A stretch of 64,000 nt of DNA, taken from contig NZ_BMXI01000017.1 of the NCBI RefSeq assembly GCF_014651675.1, forward strand, positions 1 to 64,000, read 5' to 3'. The notes under the pieces were generated by a model, which ran no database searches, was not told the origin of the DNA, and saw only the letters and a list, made by a program, of their open reading frames with translations. Source of the DNA: Roseibacillus persicicus. GTDB lineage: Bacteria > Verrucomicrobiota > Verrucomicrobiia > Verrucomicrobiales > Akkermansiaceae. This document shows positions 55,127 through 59,149 of the stretch, piece after piece (position 1 is the stretch's first letter; each line of letters starts with the position of its first letter). The position numbers and the translations under genes were made by a program.

Positions 55127-55753
55127 TCACGACTCCGGCCGCAAGGGGCGCGGTTTGGGGGCTTCCGGGCCAGATGGTGGGGCGGGAATATGTTCCATGG
55201 ACTCCACTTTTTGCCGCCAAACCGCATTCTCGGCCGCAACGGCCATGAGGTGTTCCTCGTGGCTGATGCGCTGCTTGTTTTTGATGAAACTGAGGGCGAA
55301 GTAGAAGAGTCCCCAGGCGAATCCTTGGAAAACGAGCCCGCCTCCGACGATTCCCAAGACCTCGAGAAAAGACGGACTATAGCTCAGTGCGTATTCCGCG
55401 AAGGCGCCGGCGAGGGAGACCTGTTGAATGGTCGTGAATTGGACAAAGCGCTTTCGAGTGGTCTCCTCCGTGCGGAAGTAATAGGTCGCGGCGACAATAC
55501 CATTGGCCAGCGTGAGAAAACCAAAGATCGAGGCGAAGCTCCAGAAGGGCAGTATAAACAGCGAAGCCCCAAAGTCATAGGAAGGGAAGGAGGTGAATCC
55601 CGAGGTGAAAACGCTGACAAGAGTCCCGAAGGCCAAGCTGCCCGCCAAAGCCAGCGCGCTGCCGAGATAGAGGCAAAGAAAGAGGGTCAGCCCCCTCCGA
55701 ACAGCCTCTCCAATTGCACTGCCAAAGATTTCCTCGGGATCGAGTTGAATCAT
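55127..55753 (-). CDS. Polytopic membrane protein of unknown function
   Basis: 208 residues with four to five membrane helices (GLTLFLCLYLGSALALAGSLAFG; SLFILPFWSFASIFGFLTLANGIVA; AEYALSYSPSFLEVLGIVGGGLVF; GFAWGLFYFALSFI) and a cytoplasmic proline-rich tail (PAPPSGPEAPKPRPLRPES). I do not recognise a family. It is next to the repeat array. Confidence 0.6.
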   Translation of the reverse strand: MIQLDPEEIFGSAIGEAVRRGLTLFLCLYLGSALALAGSLAFGTLVSVFTSGFTSFPSYDFGASLFILPFWSFASIFGFLTLANGIVAATYYFRTEETTRKRFVQFTTIQQVSLAGAFAEYALSYSPSFLEVLGIVGGGLVFQGFAWGLFYFALSFIKNKQRISHEEHLMAVAAENAVWRQKVESMEHIPAPPSGPEAPKPRPLRPES

Positions 55754-55831
55754 GCCAGTATCTAGCAGAGGGCCTAGATTTTTGCAAAGTCTCGATGTTC
55801 AGCCTGGGTTTAGGAAACAAGCGAATCGCAC

Positions 55832-55960
55832 GGTAGGGTCCTTTTGACAAAAGGACCGCGAGTGTTCGGAGCCGTTCGCATGGCCATCTTGCAGACAACA
55901 GCCGGAGGCCTGGGGACCTTCCCCGAACATTCGCGGCTGTTTTGTCAAAACAGCCCTACC
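55832..55960. repeat. REP-like inverted pair (BIME), array copy 0
   Basis: Left hairpin: GGTAGGG at 55832-55838, with stem arms GGTCCTTTT (55837-55845) and AAAAGGACC (55849-55857), then GCGA. Right hairpin, facing the opposite way: TCGC then GGCTGTTTT (55935-55943) and AAAACAGCC (55947-55955), then CTACC. Both share the same head (GGTAGGG) and tail (CCGCGA) in inverse orientation but have different stem sequences. Confidence 0.8.
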
Positions 55961-56219
55961 GCCCGATTCTCAGACAACTCGTTGGCAGAATCATGATTCG
56001 AAGAGACGGTTCGGTGGGGCGAGTGGGGGCACTCGCGGTCCAACGCTGAGCGCTCTTCTGGAGTGCGTGCCGCTTGCTGCCGCTTTGGGGTGGATAGGTT
56101 CGTTCTCTCACCCGCCCGGGAAGAGTAAAGCTTGCTTGCTCGAACTTGTGGGGCTGCGATTCAAAGAGCGCAACCAACCAAACAGCCAAAGCCCCACTCC
56201 GTATCCTTCACCCCCCACC

Positions 56220-56348
56220 GGTAGGGTCCTTTTGATAAAAGGACCGCGAATGGTCTGAGTTACTCGAATGGTTCACCCGCGGACAACGGCCGAAGGCCTG
56301 GGGACCTTCCCCGAACATTCGCGGCTGTTTTGGCAAAACAGCCCTACC
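56220..56348. repeat. REP-like inverted pair, array copy 1
   Basis: Head GGTAGGG at 56220-56226; arms GGTCCTTTT (56225-56233) and AAAAGGACC (56237-56245). Opposite hairpin arms GGCTGTTTT (56323-56331) and AAAACAGCC (56335-56343) with closing CTACC to 56348. Same layout as copy 0. Confidence 0.8.
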
Positions 56349-56606
56349 GCCCGATTCTCAGACAACTCGTTGGCAGAATCATGATTCGAAGAGACGGTTC
56401 GGTGGGGCGAGTGGGGGCACTCGCGGTCCAATGCTGAGCGATCTTCTGGAGTGCGTCCCGCTTGCTGCCGCTTTGGGGTGGATGGGTTCGTTCTCTCACC
56501 CGCCCGGGAAGAGCAAAGCTTGCTTGCTCGACCTTTTGGGACTGCGATTCAAAGAGTGCACCCCATCAAACAGTCAAAGCCCCACTCCGCATCCTTCACC
56601 CCCACC

Positions 56607-56735
56607 GGTAGGGTCCTTTTGATAAAAGGACCGCGAGAGTTCAGGCGAGTTCGAAAGGTTCTCTCGCGGACGAAGGGCCGGAGCCCTGGGGACCTTCCCC
56701 GAATATTCGCGGCTGTTTTGGCAAAACAGCACTAC
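56607..56735. repeat. REP-like inverted pair, array copy 2
   Basis: Head GGTAGGG at 56607-56613; arms GGTCCTTTT (56612-56620) and AAAAGGACC (56624-56632). Opposite arms GGCTGTTTT (56711-56719) and AAAACAGC (56723-56730), the last pair broken by C to A at 56731. Confidence 0.8.
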
Positions 56736-56993
56736 CGCCCGATTCTCAGACAACTCGTTGCAGAATCATGATTCGAAGAGACGGTTCGGTGGGGCGAGTG
56801 GGGGCACTCGCGGTCCAACGCTGAGCGACCTTCTGGAGTGCGTGCCGCTTGCTGCCGCTTTGAGGTGGATGGGTTCGTTCTCTCACCCGCCCGGGAAGAG
56901 CAAAGCTTGTTTGCTCGAACGTGTGGGGCTGGGATTCAAGGAGTGCAGCCGCCCAAATACCAAAGACCCCACCCCGCGCTCTTCGCCTCCACC

Positions 56994-57123
56994 GGTTGAG
57001 TCCTTTTGATAAAAGGACCGCGAGAGTTCAGGCGAGTTCGAAAGGTTCTCTCGCGGACGAAGGGCCGGAGGCCTGGGGACCTTCCCCTAACATTCGCGGC
57101 TGTTTTGGCAAAACAGCCCTACC
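56994..57123. repeat. REP-like inverted pair, array copy 3
   Basis: Left head is degraded to GGTTGAG (56994-57000), but arms GTCCTTTT and AAAAGGAC are intact. Opposite arms GGCTGTTTT (57098-57106) and AAAACAGCC (57110-57118) are intact. Confidence 0.75.
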
Positions 57124-57285
57124 GACGGAGCCGGGACATTTCTGTCCCTGGGACGGTCCGTCCGCGACGAATCGTCGACATCGGACACGTCCCGACGAAG
57201 CCTCTGACTCACCGAGGCACTGCTCATGGACAGGAATGTCCATGCTCCGGTCGGGTCTTTTTGAAAAAACAGCCCTACCGGTGGC
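57124..57285. repeat. Second REP-like family, inverted pair
   Basis: Left: GACGGAGCC then arms GGGACA (57133-57138) and TGTCCC (57143-57148). Right, inverted: arms ATGGACA (57226-57232) and TGTCCAT (57237-57243) followed by GCTCCGGTC, the complement of the left head. Both have GGAG at the foot of the stem. A third, mosaic hairpin of the first family ends the region at about 57285. Confidence 0.7.
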
Positions 57286-57385: not shown

Positions 57386-59149
57386 ATGCGAAAAATTCTA
57401 ACTGTTCTGTGGCCTTTCCTCCTCGCGCTTTTTGGGGGAGGGCTTCTTGCGCTTTGCTTTGCTCCCTTCAATTGGGCCGATCTCGTTTGGCTCGCTCCAG
57501 TGCTCTGGATGGCGGCTTTTTGGTTGGGAAAGGGCGAGCGTCGTCCCCGCCGCAAAGGATTTTTTCTCGGCTGGCTGGCGGGGCTGGCCTTTTGGTCCAT
57601 CAACTTGAAATGGTTGGCGACCGTGACTGGGGGCACTTATCTGATCCTAGCCGCCTATCTCGCACTGTATTTTGCCTTCTTCGGATTGTTCGTTTCCTCG
57701 GCCGGGAACCCTTTTCGCAAAGAAAGACCCGATGGAACCCGCATGGCGGAAGCTCTTCGTTCGCTCGGCTTTGCGGCTCTCAATGCTGGATTCTGGTGCG
57801 GGCTGGAATGGATTCGCGGCTGGATGTTGACGGGGTTTGGCTGGAACGGTCTAGGAGTGGCCTTTCATGATCGACTACCCCTGGCGCAGGGGGCGGAGCT
57901 AGTAGGAGTAACGGGCTTGGCCTTTCTGCCTGTATTCTTGGCGGGGGTGATGGTGCAGGTGGGAGTCCGCTTGGGCAAAGGAGTGCAGGCGGGAAAAATG
58001 CAGCGGCACTGGGACTTTGCAGTCGCGATTTTACTCCTCGTCGTTTGCTTCACCTACGGAGTTTTTCGCACGGTTTTCATCAATCGATCGGCAGGTGATA
58101 CCTTGCGAGTTCTCTTGGTGCAAATGGACATTCCCCAGAGCGCAGGGCATGTCGAGTGGTCGGGCGAAGAAGTTCATGAAGGCTACGAAGGCGAGACTCT
58201 ACGCGCCCTTGCCGAGGTCGATGCCCGCAATGAAAAGCGCATCGCTGAAGCCGAGGGAGAAGTCGAGTTGGAGTCAGTGGACTGGGTGGTCTGGCCTGAG
58301 GTGGTGCTCTACGGAATTTTGCTCAACGGCGGAGGTGACGAGTTCGCTCTCTATGAGCCCTCCAGCTCGACGCTCCAGCGCATGCGCGAAGCTGGGGTCC
58401 GCAATCTGATGGCGGGAATTTGGGAAGTCGAGGCAGAGCGCGTTGAAGGGGGGCTGCGTCCCACGCAAGAAAATGGCAGCCAGTATAATGCCTTGTTGTC
58501 AGTCAATCCGGCGGGTGAGTTGGCAACCCATCGCAAGCAACACCTCGTGATCTACGGCGAGTTCATTCCCTTCGTGGACTCGGTGAAATGGCTGGGTGAC
58601 ATCTATGAAAAAGTGGCCGGGGTCCCGTGGGGAGGAAACTTGGGTCGGGGAGTGGGGAGTGAAGGCCTCACTCTTCCGGGCGCGGGTGGCGAGGTGAACA
58701 TCATCCCTTCCATCTGCTTCGAAGACACCGTGCCCCGCGTGACGCGCAAGTTCAGCAAAGGCGAGCGCGAAGTTATTGTGAACATCACCAACGACGGCTG
58801 GTTCGGAACCAGCGAGGGGTCGCAGCAACACTTTGACAATGCCCTCTTCCGCGCCATCGAACTCCGCCGCCCGATGCTCCGCGCGGCCAACCGGGGAGTC
58901 ACCGGAGCGGTTTCGGCTACGGGAAGTCTCGTCGATTATGAGACGGGGAAAAAGCAGGTGATGCTCGATGAGGAGGAGAAGCCCTTTGTCCGGGGTAGCA
59001 TCTTGACCAAGGTGAAAATCCCCGAGCGCGGAGGCCCCACTCTCTATGCCCGGGCGGGGGATTGGTTTTCGGTTCTCGGGTTGGTGGTCGCAGTAGGCTG
59101 GATGATCCGTTGCCTCGGCTGTTGTCGCGGCAAGGGTAAAATCTCCTGA
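57386..59149 (+). CDS. lnt: Apolipoprotein N-acyltransferase
   Basis: 587 residues. Six to eight membrane helices in the first ~250 residues (LLALFGGGLLALCFAPFNWADLVWLAPVLW; AGFWCGLEWIRGWMLTGFGWNGLG), then a carbon-nitrogen hydrolase domain in the periplasm. Catalytic residues: E305 (VVWPEVVL), K384 (ATHRKQHLVIYGEFIPF) and C444 (IPSICFED), followed by NITNDGWFGTSEGSQQHFDNALFRAIE. It adds the third acyl chain to lipoproteins. At 587 residues it is longer than the usual ~510, with insertions near 120 and 270-290. Confidence 0.93.
   Translation: MRKILTVLWPFLLALFGGGLLALCFAPFNWADLVWLAPVLWMAAFWLGKGERRPRRKGFFLGWLAGLAFWSINLKWLATVTGGTYLILAAYLALYFAFFGLFVSSAGNPFRKERPDGTRMAEALRSLGFAALNAGFWCGLEWIRGWMLTGFGWNGLGVAFHDRLPLAQGAELVGVTGLAFLPVFLAGVMVQVGVRLGKGVQAGKMQRHWDFAVAILLLVVCFTYGVFRTVFINRSAGDTLRVLLVQMDIPQSAGHVEWSGEEVHEGYEGETLRALAEVDARNEKRIAEAEGEVELESVDWVVWPEVVLYGILLNGGGDEFALYEPSSSTLQRMREAGVRNLMAGIWEVEAERVEGGLRPTQENGSQYNALLSVNPAGELATHRKQHLVIYGEFIPFVDSVKWLGDIYEKVAGVPWGGNLGRGVGSEGLTLPGAGGEVNIIPSICFEDTVPRVTRKFSKGEREVIVNITNDGWFGTSEGSQQHFDNALFRAIELRRPMLRAANRGVTGAVSATGSLVDYETGKKQVMLDEEEKPFVRGSILTKVKIPERGGPTLYARAGDWFSVLGLVVAVGWMIRCLGCCRGKGKIS

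Follow-up and report, generated by a model that had tools for sequence, protein, structure and literature searches.

The locus described here is very probably a mosaic tandem array of non-autonomous REP elements of the BIME/REPIN type, whose basic unit is a 130-bp inverted pair of GTAG hairpins able to fold as one branched single strand, and which would have arisen through RAYT mobilisation in trans together with local amplification. It lies in the window, the whole 64-kb stretch of DNA that was analysed, which is a portion of contig C17 in a draft genome of 5.28 Mb that is estimated as 97.5% complete. The array itself is of a known kind, and its family of GTAG-footed hairpins (T family) is a BIME/REPIN array. 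What is new is a GGAG foot (G family), which falls outside the published GT[A/G]G definition and is common beside the RAYTs of this phylum, and an association of RAYT residues 98 and 101 with the second base of the foot.

The array sits in an intergenic gap between two divergent genes, an ORF without a match above cut-off in a Pfam scan and lnt, which was found in all four genomes of the genus; when the upstream regions were compared by eye, the left flank of lnt was not common to the three other genus genomes. The features are as follows.

55127-55753, minus strand: ORF, hydrophobic by eye
55831-57124, no strand: tandem array of 3.3 units, period 388/387 (TRF, direct repeats D1-D3, order and gaps)
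55832-55861, plus strand: T hairpin type A of unit 1, GTAG foot, stem GGTCCTTTT (pattern, fold, covariance model R1)
55931-55960, minus strand: T hairpin type B of unit 1, GTAG foot, stem GGCTGTTTT (pattern, fold, R1)
55961-56219, no strand: S module copy 1, 259 bp, with homologous modules at five other array loci
56220-56249, plus strand: T hairpin type A of unit 2 (pattern and R1)
56319-56348, minus strand: T hairpin type B of unit 2 (pattern and R1)
56349-56606, no strand: S module copy 2 (order and gap analysis, module alignment)
56607-56636, plus strand: T hairpin type A of unit 3 (pattern and R1)
56707-56736, minus strand: T hairpin type B of unit 3, one head mismatch (R1, 40.3 bits)
56737-56993, no strand: S module copy 3 (sequence and direct repeats)
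56994-57023, plus strand: T hairpin type A of unit 4, degenerate head GGTTGAG (R1, 33.3 bits)
57094-57123, minus strand: T hairpin type B of unit 4 (pattern and R1)
57127-57150, plus strand: G-family hairpin with GGAG foot, 3 bp past the B hairpin of unit 4 (G pattern)
57225-57248, minus strand: opposed G-family hairpin with GGAG foot (G pattern; fold z -3.60)
57249-57279, no strand: double-foot element of 31 bp, half A and half B hairpin (fold z -3.44)
57386-59149, plus strand: lnt, with LNT_N and CN_hydrolase domains

TRF reports a single array in the 64-kb window (55831-57124, period 388, 3.3 copies, 90% matches), in agreement with the preliminary description, which had proposed a 388-bp unit in about 3.3 copies carrying two facing hairpins with head GGTAGGG, tail CCGCGA and two unlike stems. 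All of these are present: each unit consists of an inverted T pair of about 130 bp, hairpin A followed by hairpin B across an inner gap of 69-70 bp, and of an S module of about 258 bp, and A and B have the head and tail in common but carry unlike 9-bp stems. Two heads depart from this description: that of the fourth A hairpin, at 56994, is degenerate (GGTTGAG), and that of the third B hairpin has one mismatch. Because the copies are about 90% alike, the array is not recent. The double-foot element at its right end has a head at both ends, one of them reading GGTCGGG, abuts a GGAG foot with 0 bp between, and is the sole example among the 20 array loci scanned. A further GGAG hairpin pair lies on the same contig beyond the window (G000:C17:78463-78574).

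The T hairpins carry GTAG directly before a 9-bp stem with a 3-nt loop, as published for REP heads, and fold as single strands at -8.1 kcal/mol (A, z -3.14) and -8.7 kcal/mol (B, z -3.45), with 0 of 200 shuffles as good in either case. A second family with GGAG heads had also been described, and both its heads and its stems were found (CCGGGACA/TGTCCCTG and CATGGACA/TGTCCATG), but the first stem has one C-T mismatch and the 49-nt stretch holding its hairpin with flanks (57127-57150) folds no better than shuffles (z -1.0, 35 of 200 as good). The hairpin with the second stem, likewise folded with flanks, reaches z -3.60 (1 of 200 shuffles as good), and the whole 129-nt GGAG pair z -5.79 (0 of 200). 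Stem changes were compared over 31 distinct T sequences and over 26 distinct G sequences; from the 82 T pattern rows the distinct 30-mers were used, with one longer row and one palindrome-free row excluded. In the T stems 93.9% of cells are paired versus 81.5% in shuffled sequences and 41 cells are doubly changed versus 16.3, neither figure being reached by any of 500 shuffles, and slid controls gave at most 6 doubly changed cells; pairs with a double change (5 of 9) are reached by 99 of 500 shuffles and are not above chance, and the 12 further pair types are reached by 42 of 500. The G stems are 96.2% paired versus 90.3% and hold 13 doubly changed cells versus 4.0 (0 of 500 shuffles for both), all of them in one of the eight pairs, and the counts of covarying pairs and of types are not above shuffles (reached by 498 and 495 of 500). 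Stem covariation is thus present in both families, weakly in the GGAG one. The claim of better pairing than in shuffled sequence stands for the main measures, shuffles and slid controls taken together, but not for one GGAG stretch nor for the covarying-pair counts.

These hairpins are by no means unique to the locus. The T pattern GGTAGGGN{14,22}CCGCGA has 82 matches in the genome versus 5 for the reversed control, forming by our reading about 23 clusters including that of the window, and covariance model R1 has at least 111 genome matches at E<=0.1, with 150 of the 4680 first-look candidates scored. The GGAG pattern, allowing up to one mismatch, has 90 matches versus 0 in the control, 87 of which start with GGAG, though the pattern itself requires GGAG with one mismatch. 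Both families therefore exist in the many dispersed copies that characterise REPs. The exact T pattern had 0 matches in the named genomes, a set that possibly leaves outside the window's own genome and those very near to it. Complete T pairs number 36 in the 20 array loci, and the hairpins are 69 bp apart in 34 of them and 70 bp apart in 2; inverted REPs at fixed spacing, together with tandem modules, are what defines a BIME or REPIN. The pairs are more alike within loci (mean identity 0.892 over 31 comparisons, with three of the loci counted holding clusters several kb apart) than between loci (0.792 over 599), which suggests that the arrays grew by local amplification.

Arrays at different loci are also built from the same modules. 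At 12 of the 20 array loci a T pair is joined to a G hairpin, in the order [A 69 B] 3 [GGAG pair] 0 [A 69 B] with one extra base in two joins, and across the 20 loci 17 of 44 A hairpins have ATGCTCC immediately next to them on the outer side, and 26 of 49 B hairpins have CTCC and three further bases there. The S module replaces the GGAG pair, fully or partly, at six loci (the window, C11, C14, C10, C5 and one C1 cluster), from which ten copies align with cores such as CTGGAGTGCGYGCCGCTTGCTGCCGCT and GAGCAAAGCTTGCTTGCTC. Since S is common to several arrays, we regard the 388-bp unit as a mosaic of dispersed modules and not as captured local DNA. As a separate observation, the S-module stretch GGACCGCGAGTGCCCCCACTCGC...CACCGAA also matches G000:C4:234591, C3:317274, C14:5923 and other places where R1 lists no T hairpin, so that S may carry a piece of another repeat family.

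How the T/G junctions came about can be read in two ways. One family may have inserted at the foot of the other, an existing foot serving as RAYT target, which would explain why the joins coincide with the feet to the base, the gap being mostly 0 or 3 bp; on the other hand, the same kind and orientation of join at 12 of 20 loci is equally explained by the copying of one ready-made ancestral composite, empty sites were not seen, and we consider insertion at feet conceivable but rather doubtful. For the array as a whole, plain local tandem duplication would be an alternative, with the hairpins kept as transcription barriers or insulators between divergent genes and no present transposition. The position between lnt and the minus-strand ORF would suit such a role, and so would the greater likeness of copies within loci than between them; however, about 22 other clusters (again by our reading) contain these pairs, spaced by an identical inner gap of 69-70 bp, matching hairpins accompany RAYT genes, and an Rfam scan of the array gave nothing near a gathering score, its one match at E<=1 lying far below, all of which makes this alternative unlikely.

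Turning to the enzymes that would move such a REP mosaic, a Y1_Tnp search placed 14 hits in the genome, none on C17, and no RAYT search of the genome placed a RAYT on that contig. The preliminary description had noted no RAYT in the window; this extends to the whole contig, so that the source would act in trans, and RAYT genes do exist on other contigs. One of them, P0001 (C2:128911-129543), has on both sides arrays of GGAGCARGGACATTCCTGTCC hairpins, which are the GGAG family of the window. It passes Pfam Y1_Tnp (26.4 bits, cut-off 23) and fails NF047646 (52.5 bits, cut-off 80), and it is called a RAYT from its flanking hairpins and Y1 domain, not from NF047646. The GGAG family thus has an exact cognate RAYT. 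The Y1_Tnp domain of RAYT type was also seen in frame in a leucyl-tRNA synthetase, after most of the editing domain (L016, G000:C9:37000-41500), in the Met_synt_B12 region of a methionine synthase, with matches in two stretches (L017, G000:C12:145500-149500), and in a type I restriction R subunit (L009, G000:C10:207000-210500); counted by hand, 40 of the 141 RAYT matches from 78 genomes show an open frame of at least 500 aa.

None of the 14 Y1_Tnp hits (13 loci scanned) is directly flanked by T hairpins. A candidate for the T family was reached via a divergent relative, L138, whose RAYT group was considered as the T group and then dropped for a shorter one, A4. This candidate, the C3 RAYT (L173, C3:150072-150527, 159 aa), just passes NCBIfam NF047646 (REP-associated tyrosine transposase; 80.6 bits, cut-off 80), fails Pfam Y1_Tnp (16.7 bits, cut-off 23) and has the HUH and Tyr motifs as DHVH and YIYLNP; it belongs to a RAYT group of about 150 aa that the Pfam Y1_Tnp cut-off misses and NF047646 catches. 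Profile A4, of T type, matches TnpAREP 4er8 at E 1e-12 and the G-type profile matches it weakly (E 0.018). The C3 gene sits within a 181-bp array of CGGTAGG-headed hairpins whose stems are other than those of the T family and bulged (by eye), and which have no CCGCGA tail and are absent from the R1 matches. Relatives of the C3 RAYT were scanned at 15 loci in other genomes, and six of these (L178, L179, L180, L181, L182 and L189, from six genomes) have GGTAGGG hairpins on both sides, with stems that vary by genome and with GGTAGCG on one side of L180; the other nine do not, their hairpins, where there are any, being GCAG, GGAG or other GTAG ones. Two R1 matches flank the RAYT in G015, one of the six genomes. 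A RAYT flanked by exact T stems was not found, the C3 RAYT sharing head and geometry and having other stems. Given that six relatives keep GGTAGGG while the stems vary, head and geometry appear to track the nearer members of the RAYT group as stems drift; stems as the determinant of the RAYT match are not favoured, since they differ between genomes while heads stay.

Judged from sequence comparison, the T family thus appears tied to a RAYT by head, by geometry and by the RAYT group of the relatives, and the C3 enzyme is the likely mover of the T pairs in the window. A RAYT flanked by the same hairpins, the link that one would look for, was therefore found for the GGAG family (P0001, C2), but for the T family only with same-headed hairpins. 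That a single RAYT, the GGAG-type enzyme of C2, moves both families would account for the exact abutment of T and G pairs, which in many arrays follow each other in turn across junctions of 0 and 3 bp, and a T pair does lie 1.2 kb from this gene. However, wherever a foot was called among the nearest relatives of the C2 RAYT it was GGAG or GGGG, and GGTAGGG hairpins flank six close relatives of the C3 RAYT, although the split is unclean once more RAYTs are considered, both feet being seen there. We hold a single mover to be very unlikely.

In the favoured reading, a RAYT made elsewhere would bind the foot tetranucleotide and hairpin on exposed single-stranded DNA, cut beside the hairpin and paste the pair elsewhere, a step modelled on E. 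coli TnpAREP, described as binding a single-stranded foot and hairpin and cutting nearby (PMC8266576). Unequal recombination or slippage would then multiply the pair and its neighbour module into a local array, and a deletion between the tips of A and B would yield the double-foot element. The last step follows the account of double-foot REPs in PMC6006769, which have a head at both ends and are explained there by a central deletion in an inverted REP dimer; the element at 57249-57279 fits this description, with the difference that those REPs belong to RAYT subclass 2.4 and the source of the present one is the GTAG family, which goes with a short RAYT group.

Both GTAG and GGAG had been named as marks of REP elements. 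GTAG is indeed within the published definitions, which rest on a GT[A/G]G head (PMC2817692, PMC3686654, PMC6006769), but GGAG is outside them: Table 1 of PMC2817692 has no GGAG head among its REPs, and the heads enumerated in PMC3733652 are GTAG plus the variants GYAG, GYRG, GTRG, GTMG and GTGG, without GGAG. A literature search for GGAG in connection with RAYTs and palindromes gave two papers, both unrelated to judge by their titles, and as subscription papers were mostly outside that search, absence from print is not established. As its head does not read GT[A/G]G, the G family is strictly REP-like, with a cognate RAYT, and not REP.

To see how common the GGAG foot is, we called feet blind, from like hairpins on both sides of a RAYT and requiring a GN[A/G]G foot in which base 2 could be anything, at 146 different RAYTs (198 loci, 166 with a RAYT, from which 20 duplicate proteins were removed). 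A foot was called for 96 of the 146: 35 GTAG, 31 GGAG, 18 GTGG, 5 GGGG, 5 GCAG and 2 others; a further 6 were ambiguous and no foot was obtained for 44. Shuffling the flanks in 2-mers left 0 calls out of 146. The blind call at L013, the cognate locus of P0001, was GGAG. With 31 of 96 called feet, GGAG is a common foot here. Three calls (L145, L094 and L173) were judged wrong by eye, owing to reverse strand or bulged stem, and were retained in all counts. In pseudomonad REPs such as GTAGGAGC... (PMC2817692 Table 1; PMC3686654) the letters GGAG likewise adjoin the stem, but after a GT[A/G] head; GTA or GTG precedes any example hairpin at only 1 of 66 GGAG-called loci (three sets), and these feet are therefore not the pseudomonad GTAGGAG. 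Three RAYTs with Y98/H101 (L152, L183 and L184) have hairpins called GCAG, possibly a third foot class.

When alignment columns were scanned for mutual information with foot base 2, the highest value belonged to residue 98 (0.73 bit; E. coli numbering, from the 4er8 alignment) and the third highest to residue 101. Both fall within the W94-R104 stretch, which is discussed for GTAG contact in PMC6006769, in a discussion that names H101 and not residue 98. E. coli TnpAREP 4er8 has F98/H101, whereas the G-type RAYT has Y98/T101 and hairpins that begin with GGAG. A rule fixed before the held-out tests, by which Y98 and not H101 gives G and anything else T or C, fits 89 of 94 RAYTs in the first (training) set. 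Held-out set 1 was drawn from a phylum sample of 115 genomes, 24 of which supplied its 43 RAYTs (27 called, 25 evaluable), four loci of the training genomes G000 and G038 being excluded, and the rule was right in 9 of 9 and 13 of 16 cases for its two arms. Held-out set 2 was taken from the best 80 of 335 named loci, reduced to 72 by dropping 8 with a previously seen RAYT (41 called, 39 evaluable); here it was right in 21 of 21 and 14 of 18, two of the 14 having a GCGG foot, in a set biased to GGAG-type RAYTs because its query alignment was rich in them. Altogether the rule held for 57 of 64 held-out RAYTs, set 2 again being drawn from the best 80 of 335 loci. In the pooled sets the foot base is G for all 30 RAYTs with Y98 and no H101 and T for all 20 with H101; those with R101 or T101 but no Y98 are divided, 7 with G and 7 with T or C.

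Shared descent may account for a good part of this. In trees of 157 RAYTs, from which L009 was left out as a misplaced long branch, the supported branches give 6 independent foot-differing pairs, and the rule agrees with the foot difference in an average of 0.8 of them, opposes it in none and does not differ in 5.2; H101 alone agrees in 0.8 and is opposed in 0.7. Without L145, L094 and L173 there are 3 pairs, with the rule going the same way in 0.9 and never opposite, and H101 alone 1.7 and never opposite. Neither the 6-pair nor the 3-pair test can reach significance, and the phylogenetic independence of the residue-foot link, tested on these trees, is not shown, so a causal foot code stays at the level of hypothesis. 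Other columns are also highly informative in the held-out sets (0.63, 0.63 and 0.61, where residue 98 scores 0.66 and residue 101 scores 0.58), so that much of the association may be clade structure. We therefore propose only tentatively, at somewhat less than even confidence, that GGAG is a second REP guide class and that the RAYT reads foot base 2 through its foot-touching strand, where H101 would go with T (GTAG/GTGG) and R101 or T101, above all together with Y98, with G (GGAG); on this view two orthogonal REP systems, with enzymes that differ in this code, would make up the mosaic array in the window.

Inverted REP pairs in tandem modules, with palindromes kept by paired changes, are also found in the BIMEs of E. 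coli and the hybrid BIMEs of Stenotrophomonas (PMC2817692). Two different REPs (Y and Z2) are reported there beside the E. coli RAYT, and hybrid BIMEs combine the REPs of two RAYTs; the inter-REP segments are given as non-homologous and all heads as GT(A/G)G, whereas in the present arrays the feet differ (GTAG, GGAG), short fixed junctions recur at many loci and the S module is common to several arrays. The REPINs of P. fluorescens SBW25 (PMC3116915) similarly consist of two inverted REPs and a short spacer that act as one hairpin unit, and are described in ordered tandem clusters that repeat the REPIN with flanking sequence, with a cluster beside each RAYT. In contrast, the members of a pair here have unlike stems, and pairs of two foot classes alternate.

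How a RAYT chooses its REPs is known at the level of contacts for one enzyme, and GT[A/G]G has so far been taken as the REP head. RAYTs with a natural GGAG foot, 25 of which are in named records (from the best 80 of 335 loci), make the guide-reading residues testable in vitro by swapping one or two residues together with one foot base. The mosaic arrays also hint that hairpin families belonging to different enzymes move or are multiplied as joint units, which bears on the origin of BIMEs; most of the interest would lie in the foot code, should it prove true.
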